A stretch of 39,925 bases of DNA, from assembly GCA_030611665.1 (NCBI GenBank), contig JAUWPI010000006.1, positions 1-39,925 of the forward strand. The letters run 5' to 3'. The stretch is from Candidatus Heimdallarchaeota archaeon. GTDB lineage: Archaea > Asgardarchaeota > Heimdallarchaeia > Heimdallarchaeales > Heimdallarchaeaceae. The notes beneath the pieces are model-generated. The model did not search any database. It saw only the letters and a list, made by a program, of their open reading frames with translations, and had not been told where the DNA came from. Made by a program: the position numbers and the translations under genes. Numbering within the stretch: the first letter of the stretch is position 1; each line of letters opens with the position of its first letter. Shown here in pieces: positions 16,089 through 35,216 of the stretch.

Positions 16089-17222
16089 ATGAAAATCTTA
16101 ATAATTTCAGGTGCAAGACCTCAGTTTATCAAATTAGCTCCAATAATTAAACAAATTTTAAAGGAAGATGATATGAAATTAATCCATCTTCATACAGGGC
16201 AGCACTTTGATGAAAATATGTCTAAGATATTCTTTAGCGAACTGAATATTCCTCCTCCTGATATTAATCTAAATATAAATCGAGGCTCACATGCAGAATT
16301 AGTTGGAAAAATGCTAATTGATATTGAAAAAGTGTTAAGTAAAGAAAAACCTGATGCTGTTTTTGTTGCAGGTGATACTAACTCAACTATTGCAGGTGGC
16401 ATAGCAGCAATTAAGCTTTTAATCCCAGTAATTCACTTAGAATCTGGTTTAAGAAGCTTTGATTATCGTATGCCTGAGGAAATAAATAGAAGACTAACAG
16501 ATCATCTAAGTACACTTTTAATAACAACTTCTAGCACAGCAACAAGAACTTTACTTTCTGAAGGAATTAAAAAAGATTGGATTTTTCAGACTGGGGATAC
16601 AATGGTAGATGTCGTTCTCAATAATCTTGAAAGAGCTAAAAATGAAAGTAAAATACTACAGACTCTCAACTTGACAAATCAAGCTTATTTCCTATTAACT
16701 TTACATAGACAAGAGAATGTTGATGATAAAGAAAGATTAGAACCAATACTAAAAACTCTGATAGACCTTAATCATAAAATTGTTTACCCTATTCATCCCC
16801 GAACAAGAAATAGAATCAAGGAATTCAAACTGGATTATTTACTAAAAAATGAAAACATCATATTGACTGAGCCATTAGGATATCTAGATTTCATTCAACT
16901 CCAAGAAAACGCAAGCATTATTTTAACAGATAGTGGTGGTATTCAGAAAGAAGCTTTAACACTCAAAGTTCCTTGTTTAACGCTCAGAGATAATACTGAA
17001 TGGGTAGAAACCTTAGAACAAGGCACCAATATACTTGTTGGAGCTGATAGAGAGAAAATATTTGATGCGGTATCAGTTTTTACAGATAAACAAAAAGTGG
17101 ATAAAATAGATTGGACCAATCCTTACGGTGATGGAAAAAGCAGTGAAAGAATAGTTAAGGAAGTTTTAAAGAGATTTAAAGAAGGAAAAATGGTTGTGCC
17201 TACTCATTTCATGGTTAAATAA
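16089..17222 (+). CDS. wecB: UDP-N-acetylglucosamine 2-epimerase
   Basis: MKILIISGARPQFIKLAPI, HTGQHFDENMS, ESGLRSFDYRMPEEINRRLTDHLS, TLHRQENVD, DSGGIQKEA. Confidence 0.93.
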   Translation: MKILIISGARPQFIKLAPIIKQILKEDDMKLIHLHTGQHFDENMSKIFFSELNIPPPDINLNINRGSHAELVGKMLIDIEKVLSKEKPDAVFVAGDTNSTIAGGIAAIKLLIPVIHLESGLRSFDYRMPEEINRRLTDHLSTLLITTSSTATRTLLSEGIKKDWIFQTGDTMVDVVLNNLERAKNESKILQTLNLTNQAYFLLTLHRQENVDDKERLEPILKTLIDLNHKIVYPIHPRTRNRIKEFKLDYLLKNENIILTEPLGYLDFIQLQENASIILTDSGGIQKEALTLKVPCLTLRDNTEWVETLEQGTNILVGADREKIFDAVSVFTDKQKVDKIDWTNPYGDGKSSERIVKEVLKRFKEGKMVVPTHFMVK

Positions 17223-17226
17223 AACT

Positions 17227-18462
17227 CTAATCCAGAACCTCTTTGATCTTTTCAGCTAATTTTATAGCTTGATTTCTTCTACTGAATTGTTGGATCTTTT
17301 CTTCATCACAACCGAATTCAAGAGAACCGTTTTTCCACTTATTGTAAAGAATGCAAAGTTCCTCAGCTATTTGTTCTGAATCCATAGAAACTTTAGTGAA
17401 TTGTTGTTTTGTTTTTTCACACCATCTAGATGCTTCTCCATCCTCCCCGATGAGTAGAATATGGGAATTACAGAAAGCATAATCGTAAATTTTTGTTGGG
17501 AGTGTGTAAGATGTTTTTGGGGGGATTAGGACAATATTTAGAGATGATTGATTGATTTCTTTGAATAGAGCTTCTCCACTCAAAAGTCCTAAGTTGTTGA
17601 AATATTCTCCCATGTTTGTTTTTTCAAGAATTTTGTTTAATGTTTTACTGGAGGTTTTTCCAGCGTATTGTAATGCTACTTCATCAATCTTTAAGTTAGA
17701 TTTATCGATAAATTTCCTCATTCCTAATGCTAGAGCTTCAAAACCCACTTGCCTTAAAATGTAAAAATGACCAAAATAGGAGACTGTAAATTTGTTGCTT
17801 TTCTTTATCTTTAAATCAGGTCTGTCTTCTTCAAAGAATCCGTTATAGATAACCTCAATTTTTTTATCACTTATATTTAGGCTATTTGAGATTAATTCTG
17901 AGCATTCTTCGCCAACAGTAATAACAAGATTTGATTCTTTTATAATCTTCTTTTCTGTATGTTTAACAATCTGCTTAATAATTGGAGGAAAGAACATGTA
18001 GGGACTTCCAGTTAGAGGATCTCTATAATCAATAATTAGAGGTAGCTTGTTCTTTTTTGCAAGTTTACAAGCCATAAGAAAACTTGAATGTGGGGGGGCT
18101 GTTACCATTACAGCATCAATTCTTTCTTCATTAATAATTTGTTGACCTTTCTTCTTTGCTCTTCTATTCCAAAATCTGAAAATATCTGGGAAAAAGAAAA
18201 AAGTGTCAAGTTTGAGAGTTTCGAGTAAAGCTAGAATCTTTAATTTGTATCCTATTTTTCTGATACGAATACTTCTTGCTACTTTAAGTGATTGAATATT
18301 GTATTTTTCTTGTAATTCTTTATCATGAAGGATATCTTGATGCGATGTTAAGAGTGAGACATCTATTCCTTTCTCTGGAAAATATTTAGTGAAACTTGCA
18401 GGACGGTAACCGCCAGTAATCTTGTCAGCTGGAGAAAAGTAAGCTATAAGTAATATTCTCAT
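17227..18462 (-). CDS. glycosyltransferase, GT-B fold (GT4-like)
   Basis: MRILLIAYFSPADKITGGYRPASFTKYFPEKG, YRDPLTGSPY, LVITVGEECSELI, IEVIYNGFFEED; ORF extends to 18471, ATG at 18462 preferred. Confidence 0.8.
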   Translation of the reverse strand: MRILLIAYFSPADKITGGYRPASFTKYFPEKGIDVSLLTSHQDILHDKELQEKYNIQSLKVARSIRIRKIGYKLKILALLETLKLDTFFFFPDIFRFWNRRAKKKGQQIINEERIDAVMVTAPPHSSFLMACKLAKKNKLPLIIDYRDPLTGSPYMFFPPIIKQIVKHTEKKIIKESNLVITVGEECSELISNSLNISDKKIEVIYNGFFEEDRPDLKIKKSNKFTVSYFGHFYILRQVGFEALALGMRKFIDKSNLKIDEVALQYAGKTSSKTLNKILEKTNMGEYFNNLGLLSGEALFKEINQSSLNIVLIPPKTSYTLPTKIYDYAFCNSHILLIGEDGEASRWCEKTKQQFTKVSMDSEQIAEELCILYNKWKNGSLEFGCDEEKIQQFSRRNQAIKLAEKIKEVLD

Positions 18463-18574
18463 GATAAGCACTCTAATTGTAAATTTTATCTATACCTATC
18501 AATTTTTCTAAAACAACACAAATAAACATTCCTTTTAACTTGAATATTGAAGCGTTTAAACTGATTTTCAAAAG

Positions 18575-18584
18575 TTTTTTATAT
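18575..18584 (+). promoter_or_regulatory. TATA-box candidate
   Basis: ttttttatat centred about 26 bp upstream of ATG 18605. Confidence 0.45.
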
Positions 18585-18604
18585 TGTGCATTATCAAAAC
18601 AAGT

Positions 18605-20479
18605 ATGACAGATTTCCTTTTCATTGTTTCCTCAGACAAGAAGAGTTTGGAAAAAACCAAAGATCTTTTTCCTTCTAAAATGAAACATCAAGAAGAAATA
18701 AATGACAAAGGTTTACAGATTATAATCAGAGATTTTGAGAAAAACAATTACGAATTGGAAATCAAGAAGAAGAATTATCATTTTTCTCCTAACATATTGA
18801 AGCACAAAGATATTTCTAGTGAAACATCAATAAAGAAGGAATCTTCAGAAAATATTCAACCATTTATTGAAATTGATTTAGAAAAAAAAGAAGCTATTAT
18901 CTCAACAGATCCTATGGGAACCGATTTTATCTATTTTTCTTATGTTGGTAACACATTGTATATTTCTTCACAGATGAAATATATACTCCAAAGTGAAGTG
19001 GGGCTCTTAGGTTCTTTAGATTATGATGCAATGCTGGAGTATGTTTTTTCTCATTGCATATTGGGGATGAAAACTTTCTTCAAAAATATTAAACTTCTTC
19101 CCTACAATCGTACAATCAGAATTAATTATAATAAGATAGAATCAGATCATATCGATTCTTTTCTTTTAACTAATAGCGAAATAAAATATCAGTTTCCAAC
19201 TGATTACAAGAAAATGGATAAGGAAGGATATAATAAAACCGTAGAGGAACAGGCTCTTCAATTTAGGGATTATTTTACGAAAATATTGAACCTAAGAGAT
19301 AACAACAATTATTTCCTTCTATCAGGTGGATTAGATTCCAGAACTTTAATTACAGCTGTTGATCAAGATATTAAATCGAAATATAGTGGGATAACTTTTG
19401 ATTATTCTTCTACTGGTCAAAATGTCACTTATGCAAAGAAAGTTGCAGAAATTCTTGATGTTGAGCACATAGTCAGGATAATAGATGTTGAAGATACGGT
19501 AAGAGATTCAATAAAGCATATGTGGTTTTGCGAAGGAGTATCAACACATGTAGCTTCAAGATTAGTTAGCTTTCTAGAAGAAGTGGAAACCAAAAATAAT
19601 CTGTATATTGATGGTTATCTAGGAGATACGCAACTTGGAGGGGAATTTTTTACTTGTATTAAAGAAAAAAATATGCGAAAGGATACTTCATACTCTTTAC
19701 TTAAAGCAATGCAATTACATAATTATTTCTTCCCACCAGAAATATTTGAGAAAATGGCGAGAGAAAAGAATATTCTGAAAAGAAGTGTCATCCCTGAATT
19801 AAAGAAACATTCTGATCTACTTTGGAAAGTGAATAATAAAAGAATGCAAACTGAGTGCCTTTTAGCACTAACAAGAGGTAGAAAATACACAATAGGTGGT
19901 CCAAAGACGGTAGAAAATTATGGAACAACAATTTTACCGTTTTATCACCCTCAAATATTCAGTACCTACATTAAGATTCCTTATGAACTGAGAGAAAAAC
20001 GAAACTTTGAACTTGATATCTTAAACTTTCTAAATGAAGATATAGCGATGTTACCTACAACATCATCCAAATTTAAGAGATTGAAAATCGTACAAAATTC
20101 TCTAAAGGCAGTTAGATGGTTTGAAAGGAAATTGGGTGTGTCTATTATACCTAAATCATATGCTCCAATATACAAATGGACAGATGAAGAAAATTCATAT
20201 TATAAATTCATTAATAAAATTATACAAGATGATAATTCTTTCATCTGGAACTTATTTAACAAGGATGAAGTTAGAAAACAATTCGATTATCTTTTCAAAA
20301 GAAAAAGTCATCTGGAGTTATTTCTATCAGCATTTATAGATCTTGAAATTATGATGAGGTTATACTTTGGCCTTCATAAACCTGATAAAATCTCAATCGT
20401 AAGTGAAAATCTAAATCTAAAAGTGGATTCGTCACCACTTTTTGAAGCATATGATATAAAGAAAATAATCTCAGAGTAG
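18605..20479 (+). CDS. asparagine synthetase-like protein with degenerate N-terminal Ntn domain
   Basis: PP-loop FLLSGGLDSRTLITAV; AsnB-like C-terminal half; ATG start MTDFLFIVSSDK lacks Cys2. Confidence 0.75.
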   Translation: MTDFLFIVSSDKKSLEKTKDLFPSKMKHQEEINDKGLQIIIRDFEKNNYELEIKKKNYHFSPNILKHKDISSETSIKKESSENIQPFIEIDLEKKEAIISTDPMGTDFIYFSYVGNTLYISSQMKYILQSEVGLLGSLDYDAMLEYVFSHCILGMKTFFKNIKLLPYNRTIRINYNKIESDHIDSFLLTNSEIKYQFPTDYKKMDKEGYNKTVEEQALQFRDYFTKILNLRDNNNYFLLSGGLDSRTLITAVDQDIKSKYSGITFDYSSTGQNVTYAKKVAEILDVEHIVRIIDVEDTVRDSIKHMWFCEGVSTHVASRLVSFLEEVETKNNLYIDGYLGDTQLGGEFFTCIKEKNMRKDTSYSLLKAMQLHNYFFPPEIFEKMAREKNILKRSVIPELKKHSDLLWKVNNKRMQTECLLALTRGRKYTIGGPKTVENYGTTILPFYHPQIFSTYIKIPYELREKRNFELDILNFLNEDIAMLPTTSSKFKRLKIVQNSLKAVRWFERKLGVSIIPKSYAPIYKWTDEENSYYKFINKIIQDDNSFIWNLFNKDEVRKQFDYLFKRKSHLELFLSAFIDLEIMMRLYFGLHKPDKISIVSENLNLKVDSSPLFEAYDIKKIISE

Positions 20480-20497
20480 AAGTAAGTACTTTACAGA

Positions 20498-21865
20498 TTA
20501 AATGCCAATTTTTACTATTTTTCTGTTATGTGTAGAATCTTCTGTCACAATGTTTCGAGTATCGAAGAAAATGTAAGGGGAAGAAGCGAGTGTATCAATT
20601 TCTTCGAAAGCAAGTAATTTATACATATTATGGTCAGAAAGTAAGATTATGATGTCAGCACCTTTAAGGATTAACTTTAGGTCACTTTCAACATTTGTTT
20701 TCGATAGTTTTTCTAATTCTTCTTTACTATACAATGGATCATGTAACCAAACATCTGCATTACTTTGTTGAAGATTATTTATGATATCAATTGTTGGTGA
20801 ATATCGATGTTCTTTGACATTTCCTCTGTATGTGAAACCTAGAAGAACAATCTTTGCATTCTTAATGTCTTTTTGAATATTTTGAAGTTCTTCTCCCATT
20901 TTTTCAATTACATGAACAGGCATGAGTGAATTTACTTCTCTTCCAGATGAAATTAACTTTGAATCTAAACCGATCTCCCTGAGATTTTGGAGTAAGAAAT
21001 GTGGATAGACAGGAATACAATGACCTCCAACTCCCGCTCCAGGCATTAGTATATTTCCTGCAGGTTCAGAATTAACAGCATCTCTTACTTCATAAAAATT
21101 GACATTGAGTTTGTCAGCAATTCTTGCTAGCTCATTTGCTATTGCAATATTCATGTCTCTGTAGACCCCCTTGAATACTTTAACAGCTTCAGCTGTTGTA
21201 GCGGAACTCATTTTTATCACACCTTTTTCTACAAACGTTTCATAGAATTTAGCAATCTTATCAGTGCTTAATGAATCAAATCCACCAACGATTTTTGGAT
21301 AATTCACAGTGATATCTGCCATGGCTCTACCGCTATAGGTTCTTTCAGGAGAAAATCCTATGCCAAAATCTTCTCCAGCTTTTAAGCCTGAAATTTCTTC
21401 TAATAATGGTTTAATTATTCCCTCAGTTGTACCTATTGGGAGAGTAGTTTCTTGAATAATTAGATGTCCTTTCTCCAAATGTTTAGCAATTTTTTCTAGT
21501 AACTCTTTCAATGGATCAAGGTGAGGTTGTTTGTTCTCATCAACTAAGATCGGGATGATAATTACAATAATGTCTGAGGATTTAACCGCATCACTAACGG
21601 ATAATGTAGCAGAAAATTGTTTATTTTCAAGTGCTTTAACAATCCCTTCCTTTACTCCTGGTTCTCCAACAATTGGAATTATACCTTGATTTAAACCTTT
21701 AACTAATTCTGGACTTATATCAACTCCTATCACATTGTATCCTGCTTCTAAGAAAACGGTACAGATTGGTAGACCCATCTTTCCTAATCCAAAAACACTG
21801 ATTGTCAAAGAACGATTTTTTAAAGCGTTGGAAGTGTCCTTTAAATTCATTGAGAAGTATTTCAT
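20498..21865 (-). CDS. wecC: UDP-N-acetyl-D-mannosamine dehydrogenase-like nucleotide-sugar dehydrogenase
   Basis: ISVFGLGKMGLPICTVFLEAGYNVIGVDIS, IQETTLPIGTTEGI, GFSPERTYSGRAM, GAGVGGHCIPVYPHFL, LGFTYRGNVKEHRYSP. Confidence 0.88.
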   Translation of the reverse strand: MKYFSMNLKDTSNALKNRSLTISVFGLGKMGLPICTVFLEAGYNVIGVDISPELVKGLNQGIIPIVGEPGVKEGIVKALENKQFSATLSVSDAVKSSDIIVIIIPILVDENKQPHLDPLKELLEKIAKHLEKGHLIIQETTLPIGTTEGIIKPLLEEISGLKAGEDFGIGFSPERTYSGRAMADITVNYPKIVGGFDSLSTDKIAKFYETFVEKGVIKMSSATTAEAVKVFKGVYRDMNIAIANELARIADKLNVNFYEVRDAVNSEPAGNILMPGAGVGGHCIPVYPHFLLQNLREIGLDSKLISSGREVNSLMPVHVIEKMGEELQNIQKDIKNAKIVLLGFTYRGNVKEHRYSPTIDIINNLQQSNADVWLHDPLYSKEELEKLSKTNVESDLKLILKGADIIILLSDHNMYKLLAFEEIDTLASSPYIFFDTRNIVTEDSTHNRKIVKIGI

Positions 21866-22013
21866 CTATGTTTAGAGGTAAAAAAGTTATTTTTAAATCT
21901 ATTTAAGCGTAATCACAGCTAGTGAAGATTATCTTATTTTTAAATAATAATTTTCCCAAAAGCACTGAAATACATAAATATTAATTTACTTGCAGTACAA
22001 AGGAATTAATAGT

Positions 22014-23465
22014 ATGAATTCGAAAACTTGGAACTTGACTAATTTATATGAAGTTTTCATCCAACTTGAAGAAGATATGAACATCTTCAATTTGAAGGTT
22101 CAAGATATGATTTTATGGGAAAGAATTAGATTCAAAGTTTTCAAAGAACTGTTTCTAAAGAAAGCTATTCATGCTCAAGATGAAGATGATGTTTCGTATA
22201 GTTTTATTGAAAAAAGGAAGCTTAAGAATTATTATCTAAAAAGTAAAAATTTTTTGCGCGCTATCTTTCAGCTGAATCGTAACCCTTTCCTTACTAAAAA
22301 GAAGGATATCTTGTTTATTAGTAGTCCAAGAAGAAAACTAAAGCAAAATGGTAAGTGGTGGGATATATATACAGATTATTTTGTTGAAGAATTGGGACAC
22401 TCATACGTTTCGATGGAAGATGACTTTAAATTACAAATCTTCACACCTCCACAAACTAAGAATCTACGCTATTTTACCTTTCTTGAGATTTTAGTACTCC
22501 TTAAAAGAATATTAGGGCTCTCGAAAATAACTCTTACAAATGGTGAACTAAATTCTTTAAAAAGACTTGAAGATACTTTTTATCAGAAATTTGAAGTTAA
22601 AATTAATTTTACTCAATTAGCTAAGGAATATTTAGCTAGAAGAAAGATGATCATTCCTCTCTATAAAAGAGTGCTAAAAAGGGTTCAACCAAAGTTAGTT
22701 ATACTAGTTTGTAGTTATGGAAAAGAGAATTTCATAGAAGCTTGTAAACAGAACAAAATTCCTGTTGTGGAGTTACAGCATGGAGTTATAACAAAATATC
22801 ATACAGGCTATTCATATGAAAAAGAAACTGCAGAAAAGATTCTATTTCCCGATTTTCTTTTTACTTTTGGAGAATTTTGGAAAGAGACAATCAATTATCC
22901 GATAGAAAAAGAGAAAATAATAAGTGTTGGTTATCCTGAACTAGAAAACCAGAAAGAAGCAGTTAAGAATATTCCAAAGAAAAAGCAGATACTAATTATC
23001 TCTCAACCAGGTTCTGGTGTCTCGTTATCAGAATTTGTAGTAAAATTAAGTAAAGAGAAGGATCTAAATTACAACATAGTTTACAAACTTCATCCAGGTG
23101 AAAGTGCAACATGGAGGGCAGATTATCCTTGGTTGATCGGAACTAACATTGAGGTAATTGATTATGGCACCAAAGACCTCTATGAACTCTTTGCAGAATC
23201 AGAAGTGCAAATTGGTGTGAATTCAACAGCATTATTTGAAGGAATGAGTTTTGGATTGAAAACTTTTATTTTAGATCTGCCAGGAATCGAATATATACAA
23301 CCTTTAATCGATAAGAAAATCATTACAATTATTAGCAATCCCCAAGAAATAATGAAAGTAATTGATTCTCAAAGTAATGAAACTTTTGAAACTGAGAGGT
23401 TTTTTAAAAGAAATGCCACTAAAAACATAATTGATGAAATAGATAGATTGATTTCTAAAACTTAA
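22014..23465 (+). CDS. capsule/teichoic-type polysaccharide glycosyltransferase-like protein
   Basis: VELQHGVITKYHTGYSY, YKLHPGES, QIGVNSTALFEGMSFGLKTFIL; ATG 22014 preferred over TTG 21990. Confidence 0.65.
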   Translation: MNSKTWNLTNLYEVFIQLEEDMNIFNLKVQDMILWERIRFKVFKELFLKKAIHAQDEDDVSYSFIEKRKLKNYYLKSKNFLRAIFQLNRNPFLTKKKDILFISSPRRKLKQNGKWWDIYTDYFVEELGHSYVSMEDDFKLQIFTPPQTKNLRYFTFLEILVLLKRILGLSKITLTNGELNSLKRLEDTFYQKFEVKINFTQLAKEYLARRKMIIPLYKRVLKRVQPKLVILVCSYGKENFIEACKQNKIPVVELQHGVITKYHTGYSYEKETAEKILFPDFLFTFGEFWKETINYPIEKEKIISVGYPELENQKEAVKNIPKKKQILIISQPGSGVSLSEFVVKLSKEKDLNYNIVYKLHPGESATWRADYPWLIGTNIEVIDYGTKDLYELFAESEVQIGVNSTALFEGMSFGLKTFILDLPGIEYIQPLIDKKIITIISNPQEIMKVIDSQSNETFETERFFKRNATKNIIDEIDRLISKT

Positions 23466-23502: not shown

Positions 23503-25227
23503 TTAAATATTTAGTCTAATTGGTTCAATATAACCTAATTCTTCCAGTTTATCAAGTACTTTTTGAACACTTTCTTCGATAGATTCTTTATCAGTTTCAC
23601 AGATAACTTCAGGAGCTTGTGGTTCTTCATAAGGGTCGTCTACACCGGTAAATCCTTTAATTTCACCAGCACGAGCTTTAGCGTAAAGTCCTTTTAAGTC
23701 ACGTTTCTCGCAATCTTCAACAGGACATTTAACATAGACTACCATGAAGTTTCCTATTCTTTGTCGAATTTCATCTCGAACTGATCTGTAGGGCGCAATA
23801 TTAGCCATCATAGCAATCACACCGTTTCTAGAAAGCAAATGTGTTACAAAACCTACTCTGCGAATATTCTCATCACGGTCTTCTTTACTGAACCCTAAAC
23901 CTTTGCTTAGATTCTGTCTAATAAGATCAGCATCTAAACGCTCAACGAGATAGTTTCGTTTTCTTAATTCAGCTTCTACAACCTTAGAAATAGTTGTTTT
24001 TCCTGAACCGCTCAAACCTGTAAAGAGGACTGAAACACCTTCTTGTTCAGGTCTTTGATGCTTGTTTTTTACTCCATCCATTAGGATCATCGCTACTTCT
24101 GGTCTAGTGAATTCTCTAGGAAGCATTTCACCATTTTCAAGCATTTCACGAACTTTTGTTCCACTAATAAAAACATGTGCGGATTTATCGTGAGGACAAG
24201 TTCTTTGAGTAACCATCTGTTGACACAATTTGCAGTAGAAAGCATGTTCAAATTTCATTGGTTCGACAGCTAATTCTTCTTTTGAGAATTGATCGAAAAT
24301 TTCTTGAGCATCATAAGTCCCATAATAACCCGAAACTCCAGCATGATCCCTTCCCACAATGAAATGACTACAACCATAATTCTGTCTGCTTATTGCATGC
24401 AAAATAGCTTCTCTTGGTCCTGCATAATGCATATTTGCAGGGTATACTCCTAAGAATGTTCTATCTTTGGGATAATAATTATTCAAAATAACCTTGTAAG
24501 TTTCCATTCTTGTATTGGCTGGAATGTCACCTTTCTTTGTAAAACCAATAAGTGGATTTACAAATAGTCCATCAACGTATTCTAAAGCAACCTTTTGAAG
24601 ATGTTCATGAGAACGGTGAATTGGATTTCGTGTTTGAAATGCGACAACTTTTGACCAACCTTTCTCAGTGAAAGTTTCCCTAGTTTGTTTTGGGGTTAAA
24701 CGATATTCATTGAGATCTTTATGAGGAATCTCTTCAATTAGTTTTACTTCTCCTCCGAGATAAACATTATCTGATTGATATAATGCAGCAACACCTGGAT
24801 GAGCTGTATCGTCTGTTTTGTAGACATGAATTGCTTCCTCTTTCTTATCAGGTTTATAGATATCAGAGATTTTCATAATTCCTATGTGTATCTCTTCCCA
24901 AAGAAGTGATATCTCATCTCCAACTTTAATTTGTGATGCAAAATCGTCATCAACAGTCAATGTAATTGGGATTGGCCAAACTGTTCCATCTGCTAATCTC
25001 ATATTCTTGATTATGCTATTATAATCCTCTTCGCCTGTGAAACCAGTTAAAGGAGAATAAACTCCTGTACTCAAGCATTCTAAATTTGCTAATCCTCTCT
25101 CATCAAGTTTCAATTTGGGGATAACTTTTGCTTTTTCTACCAGATCAAATCTTTCTTTCTCATCTGTTACTATTAAATTGATAAGTTTTCCACCGTGTGG
25201 CGATATAAGTTTATTTTCGTCACTCAT
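23503..25227 (-). CDS. sat-cysC: bifunctional sulfate adenylyltransferase / adenylylsulfate kinase
   Basis: SPHGGKLINLIV; FQTRNPIHRSHEHL; GRDHAGV; CxxC..CPH Zn motif; C-terminal APS kinase GLSGSGKTTISKV, IAPYRSVRDEIR, FTGVDDPYEEP. Confidence 0.94.
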   Translation of the reverse strand: MSDENKLISPHGGKLINLIVTDEKERFDLVEKAKVIPKLKLDERGLANLECLSTGVYSPLTGFTGEEDYNSIIKNMRLADGTVWPIPITLTVDDDFASQIKVGDEISLLWEEIHIGIMKISDIYKPDKKEEAIHVYKTDDTAHPGVAALYQSDNVYLGGEVKLIEEIPHKDLNEYRLTPKQTRETFTEKGWSKVVAFQTRNPIHRSHEHLQKVALEYVDGLFVNPLIGFTKKGDIPANTRMETYKVILNNYYPKDRTFLGVYPANMHYAGPREAILHAISRQNYGCSHFIVGRDHAGVSGYYGTYDAQEIFDQFSKEELAVEPMKFEHAFYCKLCQQMVTQRTCPHDKSAHVFISGTKVREMLENGEMLPREFTRPEVAMILMDGVKNKHQRPEQEGVSVLFTGLSGSGKTTISKVVEAELRKRNYLVERLDADLIRQNLSKGLGFSKEDRDENIRRVGFVTHLLSRNGVIAMMANIAPYRSVRDEIRQRIGNFMVVYVKCPVEDCEKRDLKGLYAKARAGEIKGFTGVDDPYEEPQAPEVICETDKESIEESVQKVLDKLEELGYIEPIRLNI

Positions 25228-26338: not shown

Positions 26339-27910
26339 ATGTTTGGTGATAGAGAATCCTCGTTATTGGATTTGGGTAAAAGTTCAAAATTTGCTATAAC
26401 TTTCTTTATCTCTTTTGTAATTGCAAAGTTACTTGGTCTAGTTTTCACAAAAATATTCACTAATACTCTATCAGAAAGTGATATGGGACTATATTCCATA
26501 ATTACATCAGCAGTAGCTCTAGTGATTGGATTTTCGTCATTTGGTTTTACAACTGCTGTTAATAGATACACTATAAAGTTTAAAATTTCTAAGAACCTAA
26601 ATGATTTTAAGAATTTTATTTTTACTGGAATCATTACATATATTGTCGCATTATTTATAGTAACTGCTGTGATTCTTATTGTATATTTTTTCACAAGGCA
26701 AGGTCCTTGGTTCTTAAATGTAGAAAATTACATTGTAACTGTTTTATTAATTACACTAGTTGTTTTCGCACAAATCTTCAGCACGATCTGTTATACTATT
26801 GCAACATCTTTGCAAAATAGTAGATATTATACAAGCATCATAATTATGCGAGTTTTATTACAAATCCCTTTTGGAATGCTATTTGTTATATTTTTAGACT
26901 TTGGTATATTCGGTCTAGTTATTGGATTAGCTTTATCTGAAACCGTTGTGGCGATTTATAGTATTTATCGAATATTCAAAGATATAGGAATAGGACGATT
27001 CTCCCTTCAAGAGTTTAAAAAAATAGTTACATACGCTCTTCCTTCGTACTATGTAGGAAATGTTTGGCAAGGTTTTAACTTGTTAGTACTACTAATGGTT
27101 GATTATTTCTATCCATTAACTGGTACGGAAACTATCGGGTTGTACAGATACGGAGCTTTACTCGTCACTAATTTGATACTAATTGCAGGGAACCTGATAA
27201 GCATGGTTTACCGACCAGTTATTTACAGAATGTTTGAGAAAAAAGAGCACGATCGTATTCAAGTTACGACAAAGAAAATTCTCAAGATGTTTTTAATGAC
27301 CATATTACCTTTAGGATTAGCTCTCTATGCTTTTTCCCCGTTATTAATCGTGATGTTTACTAACCTAAGCTATATCAAAAGTATTCATATAATTCCATTT
27401 CTTCTTGTAGCTGTTGTATTCAAATATCTGCACAGTATTATAGGTTATGGACACAGTTTATATTTTAAATTATATTGGGATGCAATTTCTGTAACGCTTG
27501 CCCTTGGTGTAGGATTTCTTGTAGCATATTTCGTTATTCCAATTAATGCATTAGTAGGTTTAGGAGCATCTTTCTTTGCAATAAGAGTAGTATATTCTAT
27601 GGGAGCAATATTGGTTTCACAACGTTACTATAAAATCAAACACGATGTTATAGGTTTAATAAAATTATCAACTACTTTTATAATTTCAGTAGGTGTTGGT
27701 GTTCTTTTTTACTTCTTTGTTTTCAATGATATTGCAATCTACAACGTTACTATTTCTTTCTCAATCAGTTTAGTATTGTTTATTCTTGCTGTTATCATCA
27801 CCAAACAAATCAAGAAAGATGATATCAGTTTTTTCACTTCTATGTTCAAAGATTATTTCAAAAGAAATAAACAAAAAAATAAATCGATTAACGAAACAGC
27901 TGAAAAATAG
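26339..27910 (+). CDS. Wzx-like polysaccharide flippase (MATE/MOP superfamily)
   Basis: LGLVFTKIFTNTLSESDMGLYSIITSAVALVIGFSSFGFTTAVNRYT; ~12-14 TM helices; location in glycan locus. Confidence 0.85.
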   Translation: MFGDRESSLLDLGKSSKFAITFFISFVIAKLLGLVFTKIFTNTLSESDMGLYSIITSAVALVIGFSSFGFTTAVNRYTIKFKISKNLNDFKNFIFTGIITYIVALFIVTAVILIVYFFTRQGPWFLNVENYIVTVLLITLVVFAQIFSTICYTIATSLQNSRYYTSIIIMRVLLQIPFGMLFVIFLDFGIFGLVIGLALSETVVAIYSIYRIFKDIGIGRFSLQEFKKIVTYALPSYYVGNVWQGFNLLVLLMVDYFYPLTGTETIGLYRYGALLVTNLILIAGNLISMVYRPVIYRMFEKKEHDRIQVTTKKILKMFLMTILPLGLALYAFSPLLIVMFTNLSYIKSIHIIPFLLVAVVFKYLHSIIGYGHSLYFKLYWDAISVTLALGVGFLVAYFVIPINALVGLGASFFAIRVVYSMGAILVSQRYYKIKHDVIGLIKLSTTFIISVGVGVLFYFFVFNDIAIYNVTISFSISLVLFILAVIITKQIKKDDISFFTSMFKDYFKRNKQKNKSINETAEK

Positions 27911-27961
27911 TCTCAATCATAATTATAACAAATTTTCAATTCATTACGGAAAATAGGACAT

Positions 27962-28786
27962 TTACTCTTTTTCCCAAGCTGTAATATTCAAACCAGTGAG
28001 ATTTTTTAATTTCTCATTATGATTCTTAAAATGTTCATTCAATTCTGCTCTTAATTCTGAGGAAAGTTTTGCATATCCTGGTTTTTTACCCCTTGATAAG
28101 ATAAAACGAACTCCTCTATACATTAAAGATTTTTCACCAAGAATCTCTCTCGTTCTCCTCAGGAGTCGTGGCATTCGCGGAATTATAGTGATATTCCGAA
28201 TTTCATCCTTATATTGAAAATTGTTAAATGGGATATCTAGAAATTTGAACAATTTCCTCATATTCTCTGTTGGATTTTGTAAGAATTCTTCAAAGAGAAG
28301 GAAATGCATATTCTTTATATCAAAAAACTTCAGATATCTCTCTACTTGTTCGATATAGATGCTTCTTTTCAGATATCCCTTAAATATGTCCTGTTCTATT
28401 CTCTTAGATTCAAGTTTTACAGCTTTTTCAAAACTTAAATTTTCTACACCTGCTTTTACTGCATGCCAATAATTTGAATATGCTCGATCAACTGGGTTTC
28501 TGAATATCCAAACTATTTTTACTTCGGGATTATAATCAAAAATCCTTTTGGGTACTTTTTCTGAATAGCTGTAAGTTGGAGTCTTCTCCCCAATTATACC
28601 ACTTGAACTACAATCCTTGAAGAAACTTTCATACCATTCAACCCCTTTGCTAAAATTATCTTCATTATCAAAGAAATGAAGTTCTTTTAGAGGAATACAG
28701 ACTTGAGGATTGTCTTTAAGCTGAAAAGCTAAGCTAGATGTACCTGCTTTCATCGCTCCAACTATTATGAAATCTAATTTTCTCAT
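27962..28786 (-). CDS. PAPS-dependent sulfotransferase
   Basis: 5'-PSB loop DFIIVGAMKAGTSSLAFQL; 3'-PB motif IFRNPVDRAYSNYWHAV; KTPTYSY. Confidence 0.92.
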   Translation of the reverse strand: MRKLDFIIVGAMKAGTSSLAFQLKDNPQVCIPLKELHFFDNEDNFSKGVEWYESFFKDCSSSGIIGEKTPTYSYSEKVPKRIFDYNPEVKIVWIFRNPVDRAYSNYWHAVKAGVENLSFEKAVKLESKRIEQDIFKGYLKRSIYIEQVERYLKFFDIKNMHFLLFEEFLQNPTENMRKLFKFLDIPFNNFQYKDEIRNITIIPRMPRLLRRTREILGEKSLMYRGVRFILSRGKKPGYAKLSSELRAELNEHFKNHNEKLKNLTGLNITAWEKE

Positions 28787-28798
28787 AATGTAACACTT

Positions 28799-29328
28799 CT
28801 AAAGGAATTTCTTTTCTTTTTTAAGCTTGAAGTAGTGATCTTTGTCCCTATAGGAGAATGCTTTAGCAGGATGACCTCCAGCAATGGCACAAGATGGTAT
28901 ATCTTTCACAACTACACTCCCAGCTTGTATGATTGCACCTTCTCCTGTAGTAACTTCTACTACAATAGTACATCTTGCGCCGATCCAAACATTATCTTCA
29001 ATCACTATTTTTTTTCTGTTAAAAGTTTCATCATAAGGTATTTTTGTTCCTTCATAATTAGATTTCTAGTTAGAAGTAAGATGTCCGGATCTGAATGAAA
29101 ATTATCACCAATGACCACCTCTCCATCTCCTCGAATTACTAATCCATTGAAGTTTACATTGTTACCCAGAAAAGTATTCTTGTTAACCCTTGATTTAAAA
29201 TTTACTTTTAAATTCTCTCCCACTTCTTTTGCAACTTTTCTTATTTGAGATCGATAAGTTTTGCGTTTTATTGACCGAAATATTGTTGAAATAACTCCCA
29301 AGATATTAACCATCAGATTAACACTCAA
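28799..29328 (-). pseudogene. left-handed beta-helix (hexapeptide) acyltransferase split by a frameshift near 29060
   Basis: ORFs 29005..29328 and 28799..29005 are the two halves of one LbH protein; restoring one base gives LLLTRNHNYEGTKIPYDETFNRKKIVIEDNVWIGARCTIVVEVTTGEGAIIQAGSVVVKDIP. Confidence 0.85.
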
Positions 29329-29505
29329 TTTATTCCTATTTATTAGTTATATAAGCTTTGTTTCCTTCTCATTGAAAAAATAATTATTTTAAACTCTACA
29401 AGATTTATAAAATTTATTCCTCAATTTCATACTGTAATATGCTAATTTAAATATAAACAAATTTGTATAGATAAATTAATTTTCTTTTAAGAAAATAAAG
29501 GTGTT

Positions 29506-29643
29506 ATGAGCATTTCTTCTTCATCGAACAATTTTAAATTACTGCTTAGTTTTTGGTATTCTCTAAAGAAACTTTTTGTTGATTTAGTTTCATTAATCTT
29601 AAAAAAACAATCAGTAACATCTCAAGCAGAATATTTTTATTAA
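29506..29643 (+). CDS. possible small protein (45 aa)
   Basis: ATG ORF MSISSSSNNFKLLLSFWYSLKKLFVDLVSLILKKQSVTSQAEYFY with close AAGGTG upstream; no recognisable family. Confidence 0.2.
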   Translation: MSISSSSNNFKLLLSFWYSLKKLFVDLVSLILKKQSVTSQAEYFY

Positions 29644-29690
29644 GAGGAAATTAAATATATCTAATTCTTATCAGCTTAGGAGTTCTAGTT

Positions 29691-30143
29691 ATGAATAATT
29701 TGAAAGAAGAATTTCTTAAATGGATTGACTTTAAACCAAATGACTATCATCCTCTAGTTTGGATAAGAGGAGAACCAAAAATCGGCAAGAATGTATACAT
29801 AGGTTTCTTTACGATAGTAAATGCAAAAGAAAGTGAAGTTATAATAGGTGACGATTGTGATATAGCTCCTTTTGTGAGTATAAACTGTGCAGATAGTCAC
29901 AAACGTTGTATTGGCCTACAGGATCATATTGATAGAAAACCAATAATATTAGAAAACAATGTTTTTGTGGGGTCACAAAGTGTAATAAAACCTGGTGCTC
30001 ATATTGGGCATCATTCTGTAATAGCAGCAGGAACAATTGTAGATCCTGTCAAGATTCCACCCTATTCCTTGATTACAGGTAATCCAATGAAAATTAGGGA
30101 AGGATACTACAAAGAGAAATTAGCTGAAAAAAATTCTAATTAA
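29691..30143 (+). CDS. hexapeptide-repeat (LbH) acyltransferase
   Basis: IGKNVYIGFFTIVNAKESEVIIGDDCDIAPFVSINC...NNVFVGSQSVIKPGAHIGHHSVIAAGTIV...ITGNPMKI. Confidence 0.88.
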   Translation: MNNLKEEFLKWIDFKPNDYHPLVWIRGEPKIGKNVYIGFFTIVNAKESEVIIGDDCDIAPFVSINCADSHKRCIGLQDHIDRKPIILENNVFVGSQSVIKPGAHIGHHSVIAAGTIVDPVKIPPYSLITGNPMKIREGYYKEKLAEKNSN

Positions 30144-30146
30144 TTT

Positions 30147-31202
30147 TTATTCATCAGTTATTAGATCAAAATTTAAGGGGGTTCCTCTTATACAGTCTTC
30201 TTTAGCTTTTTTACCAATAATTTCGTTTAGTAATTTTGGTGGTAGTCCATCACTAGGTCTGATTGACCTTACATTTTCATGAGTAAAAGTTTCACCTTCT
30301 TTAATATCTTTGACAATAAAAAGTGAGCGTGCAAACTTTCTATTCTTTTGAGTTTTTTCTGTCAGGTCATAACTAACTTCACCAAGAGCTTTTTCAGCGT
30401 CTCTAATGGATTCTATTAAGGTTTTGAATTCAGTTGGTTCTAACGAAAAACTAGCGTCTGGCCCCCCTAACGTCCTATCTAGTATCAAGTGTTTTTCAAT
30501 TACACATGCACCTAAAGATGCTGCTGCTATGGGTACAGATACTCCTAAAGTATGATCAGACAAACCAACAAGACAATCGAATCTTTTTGAAAGATCTACC
30601 ATAGTTTTTAGGTTAACTTCCTCTAACGGGGTTGGGTATGAAGATGTACATTTAAGTAAGATAATATCATCATTTCCAACCTTTTTACAAGTTGCAATTG
30701 CCTCTTCTATTTCAGTTAATTTTGCAATTCCTGTAGAAATAATAATTGGTTTTCCTTTTGATGCTACATATTCAATAAGAGGTAAGTCGGTAATCTCAAA
30801 AGAAGCGATTTTATAAGCTGGAACGTTCATCTCTTCTAAGAAGTCAACTGCAGTTTTGTCAAAAGGAGAGGAAAAAAAGATAAGTCCTAGACTCTCAGCT
30901 ATTTGTTTTAATTTCGGTTGCCAATCCCATGGTGTGTAGGCTTCTTCATATAGCTGATAAAGTGTTTTTCCGTCCCAGATAGTATCGTGTTTAATTTTGA
31001 AATAATCATTATCACTATCTATCGTTATAGTATCTGGGGTGTACGTTTGTAATTTTATTGCATCTGCTCCTATCTCCTTAGCAGCTTCAATAGTCTTTGC
31101 TGCTAAGTCATAATCTTGCAAATGATTTGCAGAGAGCTCTGCAATGATAAATACAGGCTTTCCTTCCCCAATCAACTTGTTTCCAAACATTATTTGTTTC
31201 AT
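30147..31202 (-). CDS. pseI: pseudaminic acid synthase-type NeuB family enzyme with C-terminal SAF domain
   Basis: FIIAELSANHLQDYDLA; GLSDHTLGVSVPIAAASLGACVIEKHLILDRTLGGPDASFSLEPTEF; SAF domain KNRKFARSLFIVKDIKEGE...IRPSDGLPP. Confidence 0.93.
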   Translation of the reverse strand: MKQIMFGNKLIGEGKPVFIIAELSANHLQDYDLAAKTIEAAKEIGADAIKLQTYTPDTITIDSDNDYFKIKHDTIWDGKTLYQLYEEAYTPWDWQPKLKQIAESLGLIFFSSPFDKTAVDFLEEMNVPAYKIASFEITDLPLIEYVASKGKPIIISTGIAKLTEIEEAIATCKKVGNDDIILLKCTSSYPTPLEEVNLKTMVDLSKRFDCLVGLSDHTLGVSVPIAAASLGACVIEKHLILDRTLGGPDASFSLEPTEFKTLIESIRDAEKALGEVSYDLTEKTQKNRKFARSLFIVKDIKEGETFTHENVRSIRPSDGLPPKLLNEIIGKKAKEDCIRGTPLNFDLITDE

Positions 31203-31328
31203 TGTTTCACCTATATTTGATGCACAATTAAGTGAAGTTCTTGTTTTATATTCTTAAGTATCGTTATTAAAAGATTTTTAAATCAAGTGTAGATAATTAA
31301 GATGAAGCATTTCCTGAGATGAGTCTCA

Positions 31329-32102
31329 ATGAGTCAAAAAATCGTAGCTGTGGTACAAGCAAGAATGGGATCATCACGTTTACCTGGGAAATCTTTAGCA
31401 AAAATTGGTAATCTCTCACTTATTGAACTTGTAATGAAAAGAGTTACTCGTTCCAAATTAGTAGATGAAATTATATTGGCAACCACAGTAAATAATAACG
31501 ACGATATATTAGCTGAACATGTTACAGAATTGGGTTATAATGTTTATAGAGGATCAGAACTTGATGTTTTATCTAGATTTATTAATGCAGTGACATCATC
31601 TGAACCAACAGTAATTGTGAGAATAACTGGGGATTGCCCTTTAATTTCTCCTAAACTAATTGATAAAGCAATACAAAATTTCAACAATTCAAATGTCGAT
31701 TATTTATCTCTATCAATAGGTGAGGGTAAGGTTTTGGCCTATCCTAGAGGGTTTGATGTTGAGGTTACTAGTCTTGAAGCTTTAACAAACGCGTACAAGA
31801 GAGCTGAGAAAAAATATGAAAGAGAACATGTAATGCCCTATATTTATACACATCTTGAGGATTTTTCTATAAAGTATGTTGAGCCAGAAAAAATGTTCTC
31901 TAGACCCAGTTATCGATTGTGTGTAGATACTGAGAAAGATCTAAAATTGATAGAAGCAATGTATGAATTCTTTAAAGAAGATCTACTTCATCTCGATTAT
32001 AAAGAAATCATTGAATTTCTAGATATAAACCCAGAAGTAGTAAGAATAAATCAAGATGTAGAGCAGAAACACTTTACAGTTGTTGAAGATAAGTTAGAAT
32101 AA
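31329..32102 (+). CDS. pseF: SpsF/PseF-type cytidylyltransferase
   Basis: IVAVVQARMGSSRLPGKSLAKI; LATTVNNNDDILAEH; RITGDCPLISPKLID; YPRGFDVEV; RLCVDTEKDL. Confidence 0.88.
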   Translation: MSQKIVAVVQARMGSSRLPGKSLAKIGNLSLIELVMKRVTRSKLVDEIILATTVNNNDDILAEHVTELGYNVYRGSELDVLSRFINAVTSSEPTVIVRITGDCPLISPKLIDKAIQNFNNSNVDYLSLSIGEGKVLAYPRGFDVEVTSLEALTNAYKRAEKKYEREHVMPYIYTHLEDFSIKYVEPEKMFSRPSYRLCVDTEKDLKLIEAMYEFFKEDLLHLDYKEIIEFLDINPEVVRINQDVEQKHFTVVEDKLE

Positions 32103-32172
32103 GAAAAATTCAAATAACGAGTAGAAAATAATTTCTAAGGTAGAAAATAACAGTATTTGAGTGTGATTAGAT

Positions 32173-33210
32173 TTGAGCAATGTAGAAGACAAGATTTGGG
32201 AATGCATACAAGGTAAAGTGGTTTTAATAACAGGTGGAACAGGATTTTTAGGAAGATCTCTCACATCCCGAATCTTAAAATTTGAACCCCAATCGATACG
32301 AATCTTCAGTAGAGATGAAGTAAAGCACTATAGATTTAACAATATTTTTGGTGATAATCCTCTTATTCGAAATCTTATTGGTGACATTAGAGACCAAGAT
32401 AGAATATTCAGAGCTTCAAAAGATGTTGATATACTCATTCATGCAGCTGCTCTGAAACGAATTGATATGCTTGAATACAATGTATCAGAATCAATTAAAA
32501 CTAATGTAATTGGGTCATTAAACGTAGCTCAAGCAGCTGTTTCCAATGATATCTCTAAAGCACTTTTTATCTCCACTGACAAAGCTTGTTCTCCCCTTAA
32601 CTCATATGGAGCATGTAAATTATTAGGTGAAAGAATTTTTACCGAAATGAACTATAGTAAAGGAAAATCAAAAACAGTACTAAGTTCTGTAAGATATGGT
32701 AATGTATTAGCTAGCACAGGTTCTGTTATACCGTTCTTTAAAGAAATAATTAACAAAGGAGAAGAAATACCTTTAACCCATCCTGATATGACTAGATTTA
32801 TTATTACTGCTGAACAAGCCGTGGATTTAGTCATGAAGGCACTTCTCTACAATACTGGAGGAGAAGTAATGATTCCAATCCTACCATCAGTAAAGATAAT
32901 CCATTTAATTAATGCTATAAAAGAAGTAATGAATGTAAATAATGAGATTACAAATATAGGTTTGAGACCTGGTGAAAAAATACATGAAATTTTGATTAAT
33001 GATTACGAGATACCACAAACCTATAAATTCGAAGATGTATATATAATTTCATCTCTAATAGATAAGTATCAAAAAGGTCGCAAAAAACCTCTTTATATGC
33101 AACTCGGAGAAGCAATGATTAATAGTAAAATACAAGAATATTCATCAAATGATAATCTCATTTCTGAAGAAGAATTAGTTGATTTTCTTAAGAAACTAGA
33201 ATTGTTATAA
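32173..33210 (+). CDS. pseB: UDP-N-acetylglucosamine 4,6-dehydratase (PseB-like)
   Basis: KVVLITGGTGFLGRSL; ALKRIDMLEYN; FISTDKACSPLNSYGACKLLGE; VRYGNVLASTGSVIPFF; TTG start. Confidence 0.92.
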   Translation: MSNVEDKIWECIQGKVVLITGGTGFLGRSLTSRILKFEPQSIRIFSRDEVKHYRFNNIFGDNPLIRNLIGDIRDQDRIFRASKDVDILIHAAALKRIDMLEYNVSESIKTNVIGSLNVAQAAVSNDISKALFISTDKACSPLNSYGACKLLGERIFTEMNYSKGKSKTVLSSVRYGNVLASTGSVIPFFKEIINKGEEIPLTHPDMTRFIITAEQAVDLVMKALLYNTGGEVMIPILPSVKIIHLINAIKEVMNVNNEITNIGLRPGEKIHEILINDYEIPQTYKFEDVYIISSLIDKYQKGRKKPLYMQLGEAMINSKIQEYSSNDNLISEEELVDFLKKLELL

Positions 33211-33218
33211 GTGATATT

Positions 33219-34361
33219 ATGAAAATTCCATATGGAAAACAGTGGATAAACGATGAAGATATAGATACAGTTACAGAAGTAATGAAATCAGATTTTCTTA
33301 CAACTGGACCTACTGTAAAGAAGTTTGAAGATAAATTTTCCTCCATTGTAAGTTCAAAATACGCTGTTGCTGTTTCAAGCGGAACAGCTGCTCTCCATCT
33401 ATCTGCTCAAGTGCTAGATGTTAAAGAAAATTCTGAAGTTATCACTACACCAATGACTTTTGCAGCTACATCTAATTGCATCTTATATAATAAGGGAAAG
33501 GTTATTTATTCTGACATAACAGGAAGAGGTTTAATAAACCCTCAAGAAATAGAGTTACAAATTACTTCAGAAACTGTAGGGGTAATACCTGTTCATTATA
33601 TGGGATTACCAGCGGATTTAGAGCATATCTCAAAAATAGCTAAAGAGAATGATTTGTTTACAATAGAAGATGCATGTCACGCTTTGGGAGCAAAGTATAA
33701 AGACAGTAGAATAGGTGATTGTAAATATTCAGATCTTGCTGTATTTAGTTTTCATCCAGTAAAACACATTACAACAGGTGAAGGTGGTATAATTACCACA
33801 AATAGTAAATCACTGTACGATAAACTTCTACAGCTTCGCACTCATGGGATAACAAAGAATAAATCTAAATTTAAAACTGAACACACTGAACCATGGTATC
33901 ATGAAATGCATAATCTAGGTTTTAACTACAGATTAACTGATATACAAGCAGCACTTGGGTTAAGTCAATTATCTAGACTTGATGAATTTGTCCAAAGAAG
34001 AAGAGAAATTGCTAACAAATATTTGGACTTTTTTAATGAAATAGGAGACAATTTTGCAGAACCAATAACAGAAAGAGAAAGTGAATATAATTCCTATCAC
34101 TTATTCGTAATTAAATTAATGGATCCCAATAAGAGAAGATCGTTCTTTGAATACTTAATGAAAAAAGAGATCTACTGTCAAATTCACTATATACCTACTT
34201 ATTGGCATCCATATTATAGAGAAAATGGATATAATGGTTCAATATGTCCAAAAGCAGAGGATTTCTATAATAGAATCATCTCCTTACCTATGTATCCAGC
34301 TCTAGAAGATAACCAGTTGGAGTATGTTCTAGATTGCATTAAAGAGTTTCAAAAAATATGA
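33219..34361 (+). CDS. pseC: UDP-4-amino-sugar aminotransferase (DegT/PseC-like)
   Basis: MKIPYGKQWINDEDIDTVTEVMKSDFLTTGPTVKKFE; SSGTAALHLS; FSFHPVKHITTGEGG PLP-lysine; GFNYRLTDIQAALGLSQL. Confidence 0.93.
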   Translation: MKIPYGKQWINDEDIDTVTEVMKSDFLTTGPTVKKFEDKFSSIVSSKYAVAVSSGTAALHLSAQVLDVKENSEVITTPMTFAATSNCILYNKGKVIYSDITGRGLINPQEIELQITSETVGVIPVHYMGLPADLEHISKIAKENDLFTIEDACHALGAKYKDSRIGDCKYSDLAVFSFHPVKHITTGEGGIITTNSKSLYDKLLQLRTHGITKNKSKFKTEHTEPWYHEMHNLGFNYRLTDIQAALGLSQLSRLDEFVQRRREIANKYLDFFNEIGDNFAEPITERESEYNSYHLFVIKLMDPNKRRSFFEYLMKKEIYCQIHYIPTYWHPYYRENGYNGSICPKAEDFYNRIISLPMYPALEDNQLEYVLDCIKEFQKI

Positions 34362-34400
34362 TTTCATGAATTTCAATGAAATTAAGTTTTAATGTACAAG

Positions 34401-34410
34401 TTTTTAAATA
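34401..34410 (+). promoter_or_regulatory. TATA-box candidate
   Basis: tttttaaata centred about 26 bp upstream of ATG 34431. Confidence 0.5.
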
Positions 34411-34430
34411 ATGTTAAATGAATTATTCAG

Positions 34431-35216
34431 ATGAAAAATTTCCAGTTAGGCATTAAATTATGGTCTTCTAATGAGAACTCATTCCCAAAATGCTTAGAAT
34501 TATTAGAAAAAAATATTTTTGACTATGTAGAAATGTATGTTGTTCCAGGACAGAAATTGGTAAATGAATTAAAAAAATTTAACTCTCATGAAGTTATTTT
34601 GCATGGACCCTCTTACAATCACAGCTTCAATATTATAGATAAAAATAAGAACTATTTTAAGGGCTTAAAATCAGTTCTAGAGATTTCTAATATGGTCGAA
34701 AGTAAAAAAGTAATTTTTCATCCAGGTATTATCAATAATGAAACTATTCCAGATCCTCTTTCTTTGACTATATTGCACGTTGAAGAGATTCAAGCTATGG
34801 GTATAGAAGTGATTTTAGAGAATGTACCCCATATAGGAATTGATGGAAAAACAAAATTAGTAGCGGCAGAATTCAACGAATTTAAATTATTAAAAAAGAA
34901 GACAGACGCTCAGACTTGTATTGATGTTGCTCATACTATCGCAAGTGCAAATATATTTAAAGAAAATCCTTTACATTATTTTGAGAAATTTTTGGAATTA
35001 AATCCGATGATGATACATCTTTGTGATGGTGATTATAATTCTACAATTGATAGACATTTAGGATTTAACAAAGGAAATTTTCCTCTTGTTGAAATCATCA
35101 AAAGGATACCAGATAAAATAAAAATATCCTTGGAAACTCCAAAAGAAGATTTTGTCAACCTATCATCTGATATTCAGAATCTAAATATTTTCAAAGAAAC
35201 AATTGGATCACTATAG
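34431..35216 (+). CDS. TIM-barrel sugar isomerase/epimerase-like (AP_endonuc_2 superfamily)
   Basis: LGIKLWSSNENSF; EVILHGPSY; KVIFHPGI; IEVILENVPH; TCIDVAHTIASANIF; MIHLCDGDYN metal-ligand pattern; downstream of pseC. Confidence 0.75.
   Translation: MKNFQLGIKLWSSNENSFPKCLELLEKNIFDYVEMYVVPGQKLVNELKKFNSHEVILHGPSYNHSFNIIDKNKNYFKGLKSVLEISNMVESKKVIFHPGIINNETIPDPLSLTILHVEEIQAMGIEVILENVPHIGIDGKTKLVAAEFNEFKLLKKKTDAQTCIDVAHTIASANIFKENPLHYFEKFLELNPMMIHLCDGDYNSTIDRHLGFNKGNFPLVEIIKRIPDKIKISLETPKEDFVNLSSDIQNLNIFKETIGSL

Follow-up and report, generated by a model that had tools for sequence, protein, structure and literature searches.

How an archaeon could build a sialic-acid-like sugar when several enzymes of the known route are not detected in its genome, and how the genes for such a sugar come to stand among those for a sulfated surface glycan, are the questions raised by contig JAUWPI010000006.1 of a Candidatus Heimdallarchaeota archaeon (GenBank assembly GCA_030611665.1). 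The window, i.e., the whole stretch of 39,925 nucleotides analysed here, is one entire contig of a metagenome-assembled genome (MAG) of 2.74 Mb that is 84% complete (G000 in the following); the genome encodes three actin-family proteins above cut-off, the best of which scores 652 bits against 'HC1 actin' and about 537-539 bits against eukaryotic actins in the Protein Data Bank, and because of this actin the host is taken to be an Asgard archaeon. Genes were called by profile search (TIGRFAM/NCBIfam, Pfam), with scores in bits set against the family cut-off, and G000 was compared with up to 20 MAGs of the same genus and with a wider set of 228 Asgard genomes. Read as a whole, the locus is with good confidence an Asgard envelope-glycan locus made of a genus-conserved core and an exchangeable nonulosonate cassette. 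The new element is the cassette, which lacks PseG, has an SpsF-type cytidylyltransferase and an endonuclease-IV-like TIM barrel, and is swapped at a single position within an Asgard sulfated-glycan island. A preliminary description of positions 16089-35216 had proposed an archaeal glycan locus combining N-acetylmannosaminuronic acid (ManNAcA), sulfation by 3'-phosphoadenosine-5'-phosphosulfate (PAPS) and a nonulosonate; this picture stands overall, apart from the canonical Pse set, the amidation, the 'polymer-type' and the 'unusual' that went with it, and the conserved island runs past both ends of that span.

The cassette includes an intact acyltransferase of the left-handed beta-helix (LbH) type (29691..30143, + strand; PF00132, 48 bits), found at the matching position with 76-78% identity in the congeners G013, G016 and G017, which is a candidate substitute for PseH. 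Next to it lies the pseudaminic-acid-type synthase PseI (30147..31202, - strand; TIGR03586, 519 bits, cut-off 340), whose best solved relative is the Pse synthase 8h2c (345 bits); an assignment to NeuB/LegI was discarded on the profile scores (519 bits against the PseI family, 321 against NeuB) and on a synthase tree, which places the protein inside the PseI clade and not outside the nonulosonate clades. The role of PseF falls to a cytidylyltransferase of the SpsF/KdsB type (31329..32102, + strand; PF02348, 127 bits), which partners PseI in many bacterial loci, and a true PseF is ruled out by its score (TIGR03584, 24.7 bits against a cut-off of 205.7). A PseB-type UDP-GlcNAc 4,6-dehydratase (32173..33210, + strand) scores 326 bits against the 408 set for TIGR03589, which is still its best family (FnlA family, 227 bits), and has as its closest solved structure the UDP-GlcNAc C6 dehydratase 2gn4 (242 bits), and the 4-aminotransferase PseC follows (33219..34361, + strand; TIGR03588, 453 bits, cut-off 423.5). 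The set of PseB, PseC, PseI and PseF announced earlier is thus secure for PseI and PseC, partial for PseB and incorrect for PseF. Furthermore, PseG has no match in the 84%-complete genome (E 1e-3) and none in G013, G016 and G017 (E 1e-6), and the best match to PseH, on another contig, reaches 39.7 of the 93.1 bits required. Since PseF, PseG and PseH orthologues are all missing, the pathway is not the canonical one. It shares PseI, PseC, a PseB-type dehydratase and a cytidylyltransferase in the place of PseF with the CMP-pseudaminic acid pathway of Campylobacter and Helicobacter (PseB-PseC-PseH-PseG-PseI-PseF), and differs from it in the SpsF/KdsB-type enzyme, in the lack of PseG and PseH and in the presence of the LbH protein and the TIM barrel.

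This TIM barrel, missing from the preliminary description, is the last gene of the cassette (34431..35216, + strand; PF01261, AP_endonuc_2, 45 bits). In the alignment with solved endonuclease IV chains it retains all nine ligands of the trinuclear metal site (H58, H97, E130, D165, H168, H196, D207, H209 and E235), and its structural model (predicted local distance difference test, pLDDT, 72; predicted template modelling score 0.78) matches both endonuclease IV and tagatose-epimerase-like folds (tagatose-3-epimerase). Unlike endonuclease IV (Nfo), the protein is shorter, sits in a nonulosonate cassette and has no match to the NCBIfam Nfo family (E 0.001); its Methanohalophilus homologue does match deoxyribonuclease IV (Nfo, 39 bits against 333). 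No relatives were found in viral contigs and plasmids. The gene stands beside PseI, or in one cassette with it, in seven loci, those of the window, G017, G108, G149, G110, Methanohalophilus profundi and a MAG labelled Eremiobacterota, and none of the seven has PseG within 7 kb. With the window left out, PseG is nearby in none of six such loci versus 50 of the 72 other loci of the PseI family (Fisher p 0.0015, kinship ignored), and in G108 and G149, both listed as 100% complete, it was not found anywhere in the genome. In the known pathway chemistry the sugar must be freed from UDP before PseI acts, and a trinuclear-metal phosphoesterase would be a fitting candidate for this step. We therefore propose, tentatively, that the TIM barrel may replace PseG as UDP-sugar hydrolase.

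The cassette occupies a defined slot of a conserved island. The core consists, in order, of a transporter of the major facilitator superfamily with a PhoU-like domain (MFS-PhoU), a membrane glycosyltransferase of the GT87-like type, a methyltransferase, a GT4-type glycosyltransferase, WecB, WecC, a protein of 491 amino acids, Sat-CysC, CysQ, an Eco57I-type methyltransferase, a protein like transcription factor B (TFB) and tetratricopeptide repeat (TPR) proteins, and segments of it with this gene order are found again in G001, G006, G010, G014 and G017, the stretch from MFS-PhoU to CysQ being collinear in G017. In G000 and G017 the module is LbH-PseI-SpsF-PseB-PseC-TIM barrel, with 49-78% identity in G017, and G013 and G016 carry the same cassette genes up to their contig ends. 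The module of G001, G006, G014 and G018 comprises instead a fused CMP-nonulosonate synthetase–PseG and a NeuB-like synthase that shares 36-40% identity with PseI; the fused protein, with its PseG-type hydrolase, is seen in this alternative module of the slot at L136:5137-6831 and L137:16810-18507. In G010, which carries the other nonulosonate module elsewhere in its genome, the C-terminal third of the TIM barrel survives as a broken piece (50% identity; L135:401-628, contig C143) beside what is left of a Wzx gene, adjoining TPR and TFB genes, and is the trace of a cassette copy lost at this site. Together with the differences among congeneric modules, this remnant indicates that one module has replaced another here.

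Where the cassette came from is addressed by a tree of 79 synthases, in which the PseI of the window groups with those of G013, G016 and G017 and with those of G184 and G211, from another Asgard family (SH-aLRT 95). The group is embedded in bacterial PseI sequences, with a few archaeal ones among them, and most other Asgard synthases branch on the opposite side. G184 and G211 have the PseI-SpsF-PseB-PseC block at 58-71% identity, and PseI above cut-off occurs in 10 of the 228 Asgard genomes. On the simplest reading, the cassette moved from one Asgard lineage to another and goes back in the end to a source in common with bacterial Pse genes. In G184, which has neither PseG nor the TIM barrel, a gene for an HD-domain hydrolase directly follows PseI (L181:11754-12428).

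The second half of the picture, sulfation, depends on three genes. A bifunctional ATP sulfurylase/adenosine phosphosulfate kinase, Sat-CysC (23503..25227, - strand), exceeds the cut-offs of both TIGR00339 (466 bits) and TIGR00455 (225 bits) and is present in 14 of 20 congeners; a CysQ-like phosphatase of 3'-phosphoadenosine-5'-phosphate (PAP; 25220..26035, - strand; PF00459, 197 bits; TIGR01331, 157 bits against 229) is directly linked to it, and adjoins it in the congeneric loci read. The third is a PAPS-dependent sulfotransferase (27962..28786, - strand; PF00685, Sulfotransfer_1, 78 bits, cut-off 22), whose translation shows a 5'-PSB-like motif, GAMKAGTSSL, and a 3'-PB-like motif, RNPVDRAYSNY, and which is 77-83% identical in G006 and G011. 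The 'complete PAPS cycle' of the earlier reading hence rests on firm matches for Sat-CysC and the sulfotransferase and on a partial one for CysQ. Sat-CysC would make PAPS, from which the sulfotransferase would sulfate the glycan, and the resulting PAP would be removed by the CysQ-like phosphatase.

Several observations weigh against the hydrolase role of the TIM barrel. The PseI-SpsF-PseB-PseC block exists without PseG and without the TIM barrel in G184 (98% complete) and G211, which leaves room for a different hydrolase; G110 encodes a PseG some 10 kb away from its pair of PseI and TIM barrel; in Methanohalophilus the TIM barrel occurs alongside a true PseH; comparing TIM barrel and PseG with kinship taken into account is powerless, with only 3-4 independent gains; and genes not seen here may fall into the gaps of a genome that is 84% complete. 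An alternative that we regard as possible yet doubtful is that the product is canonical pseudaminic acid, made with a PseG and a PseH whose genes escaped assembly, and that the TIM barrel is a later tailoring isomerase or epimerase of the CMP-sugar or the glycan. The tagatose-3-epimerase-like proteins among the best fold matches would suit such a role, as would the four-gene block kept without the barrel in G184 and G211 and the PseG on the same contig in G110. It has to account, however, for a PseG that goes undetected in four genomes of the genus (G000, G013, G016 and G017) as well as in G108 and G149, and for the nine of nine endonuclease IV ligands retained by the protein; single-metal ketose epimerases use four of the nine. 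The wider form of the proposal, that a trinuclear-metal TIM barrel replaced PseG in Asgards, Methanohalophilus and at least one bacterium while, in one Asgard genus, the entire nonulosonate module was exchanged at one site of an otherwise conserved sulfated-glycan island, in the manner of bacterial O-antigen genes, is put forward with similar reserve.

The other two alternatives concern the sulfate genes and the contig itself. Sat-CysC and CysQ might serve sulfate assimilation, or the sulfation of lipids or small molecules, with their position in the locus being incidental: some genomes do place the pair by TauE/SafE-like membrane proteins with no adjacent sulfotransferase, and Sat-CysC occurs in congeners both with and without a nonulosonate synthase. 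Against this, the only PAPS reductase family match in the G000 genome stays below its cut-off (20.9 against 22.5 bits), a cut-off exceeded in 14 of 14 control genomes, which favours sulfation over assimilation, and the island of G000, like those of G006 and G011, includes a sulfotransferase with PAPS-site motifs. We consider this alternative unlikely; the PAPS produced here finds its best use in sulfation, the acceptor of which would be this glycan. A misassembly or binning error, joining archaeal and bacterial DNA in one contig, could likewise be suspected because the sequence comes from a MAG and its PseI is nested among bacterial sequences. Such a chimera across 16-35 kb, which the preliminary description had itself named as a way in which it could be wrong, is nevertheless rejected with near certainty: the GC content is even along the contig (27-36%), independent congeneric MAGs have the same gene neighbours in matching order, and a G017 contig bears the cassette together with TFB and TPR genes.

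On the reading preferred here, PseB and PseC would convert UDP-GlcNAc into a UDP-4-amino-4,6-dideoxy-AltNAc-type sugar. This sugar would be acylated by an acetyltransferase, for which the cassette's LbH protein is the simplest choice. The endonuclease-IV-like TIM barrel would then remove UDP, the step of PseG elsewhere; PseI would join the free sugar to phosphoenolpyruvate, and the SpsF-type enzyme would activate the product with CTP. The catalytic roles, the stereochemistry of the sugars and the structure of the final glycan are all predictions from gene identity and context. In two loci that carry the TIM barrel and no PseG, those of Methanohalophilus profundi and of a bacterial MAG, genes for a formyltransferase-like protein and a PIG-L-type deacetylase are found by PseH and PseI (L030:8088-10001, L031:1187-3091), which suggests an N-formylated nonulosonate there.

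Transfer of the activated sugar may be the task of the 491-aa protein (21990..23465, + strand), which itself matches no family, including PF07388 and DUF6716. Among 21 homologues scanned (E up to 1), ten match DUF6716, a putative glycosyltransferase (best 3e-6), and two match the alpha-2,8-polysialyltransferases (A-2_8-polyST, PF07388; best 2e-5), one of them above cut-off; the Marinilabilia homologue scores 24.9 bits against PF07388 (cut-off 23.3). The homologues share with these families QHG, KLHP and ST motifs, which in the 491-aa family read E261-x-Q-H-G, K366-L-H-P and S412-T, the first two nearly invariant. ExQHG and KLHP resemble motifs of the HP type known from GT-B enzymes whose substrates are CMP-sugars or CDP-glycerol. 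The protein occurs in 30 of the 228 Asgard genomes, and 21 of these 30 have a NeuB-family synthase, versus 47 of 228 overall (p 2e-10, kinship ignored); outside the genus the two occur together in 12 of 15 (p 9e-8, kinship again ignored), and its gene often adjoins that of the synthase. A profile of the 21 homologues found no solved structure, and the AlphaFold model, built on three sequences, is poor (pLDDT 45), which counts against the assignment. On these motifs and associations the protein is a candidate GT-B CMP-nonulosonate transferase, which would move the CMP-activated nonulosonate onto the glycan.

The remaining genes of the island would deal mainly with the supply of ManNAcA and the assembly of the glycan. 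WecB, a non-hydrolysing UDP-GlcNAc 2-epimerase (16089..17222, + strand), is borne out by TIGR00236 (388 bits, cut-off 210), scores 112 bits against the 236 of the hydrolysing NeuC family and adjoins WecC in G017. The UDP-HexNAc 6-dehydrogenase of WecC type (20498..21865, - strand) belongs to the nucleotide-sugar dehydrogenases (TIGR03026, 385 bits, cut-off 190), and the name WecC fits it in part, with 283 of the 750 bits of the archaeal UDP-ManNAc dehydrogenase NF040825; its closest solved structures are the UDP-ManNAcA dehydrogenase 4r16 and Cap5O, and its substrate is probably UDP-ManNAc. The two enzymes together would supply UDP-ManNAcA. A Wzx-like flippase (26339..27910, + strand; PF01943, Polysacc_synt, 36 bits, cut-off 28), correctly recognized at the outset, would export the lipid-linked glycan, and an STT3/AglB oligosaccharyltransferase encoded elsewhere in the genome makes attachment to protein possible. 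A GT4-type glycosyltransferase (17227..18471, - strand) is clear (PF13439, 40 bits, cut-off 28.5), with no polymerase behind the label 'polymer-type', and upstream lies a weak match to a GT87-like membrane glycosyltransferase with syntenic homologues (13946..15229, + strand; PF09594, 22.2 bits, cut-off 25). The AsnB-like ATP-PPase (18605..20479, + strand; TIGR01536, 57 bits against 267) has an intact PP-loop, SGGLDS, and lacks the N-terminal Cys that is the glutaminase nucleophile, as does its G010 homologue in the alignment; it is a candidate amide or amine ligase on these features, and to call the glycan 'amidated' overstated the case. Only one of the LbH acyltransferases claimed is intact, that of the cassette; the other (about 28800..29328, - strand) is spread over two frames that jointly give one LbH protein, with the frameshift at a run of eight T, where real decay and sequencing error are indistinguishable.

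The island is flanked on one side by the MFS-PhoU gene (11915..13897, - strand; PF07690, 143 bits; PF01865, 41 bits), which keeps its order with 65-69% identity in G006 and G017, and on the other by the Eco57I-type DNA methyltransferase (35390..37270, - strand; PF07669, 90 bits), syntenic in G001, G003, G010, G011, G014, G017 and G021. Beyond the latter, a divergent TFB-like protein (37506..38468, + strand; NF001658, 24.8 bits) marks the flank of the slot, with 56-85% identity beside it in G001, G010, G014 and G017; across the genus, this methyltransferase and this factor are found time and again beside the glycan island. Near the left contig end, a tyrosine recombinase/integrase (1939-2883) lies upstream of two TPR proteins.

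Neither type of sugar is new for archaea, given the precedents available, and the expectation of an envelope unusual for an archaeon is not upheld. In Halorubrum sp. PV6, legionaminic acid genes are clustered with N-glycosylation genes (PMC6137143); the likeness is in the clustering of archaeal nonulosonate genes, while the organism is a haloarchaeon with a legionaminic pathway and the window has PseI, PseC and sulfate activation. Halobacterium salinarum has a sulfated N-glycan with the sulfotransferases Agl30/Agl31 and glucuronic and iduronic acid (GlcA/IdoA; PMC11980604), so that, as predicted for the window, sulfotransferases accompany acidic sugars in the surface glycan of an archaeon; there the acids are GlcA/IdoA and no nonulosonate module is described, whereas the window has a Sat-CysC/CysQ unit in the locus. 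Pseudaminic acid was detected in Methanobrevibacter smithii (Lewis et al. 2009, as cited in PMC6137143), a pseudaminic-type sugar in an archaeon that is a methanogen and not an Asgard. Nonulosonate genes were found in <20% of 122 archaeal genomes surveyed (PMC6137143). In the openly accessible literature, the scope of our search as opposed to subscription papers, no paper was found that joins Asgard with nonulosonic, nor one that joins pseudaminic acid with endonuclease IV.

Asgard archaea are the archaeal group nearest to eukaryotes and their surface sugars are little known; the locus predicts sialic-acid-like and sulfated sugars on an Asgard surface. Exchange of nonulosonate genes between species is a usual sign that viruses or partners exert selection at the surface. 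If the TIM barrel does perform the step of PseG, a gap in the archaeal nonulosonate pathway would be filled, the TIM-barrel family would gain a new activity, and a fold of DNA repair would be serving the synthesis of sialic-acid-type sugars.

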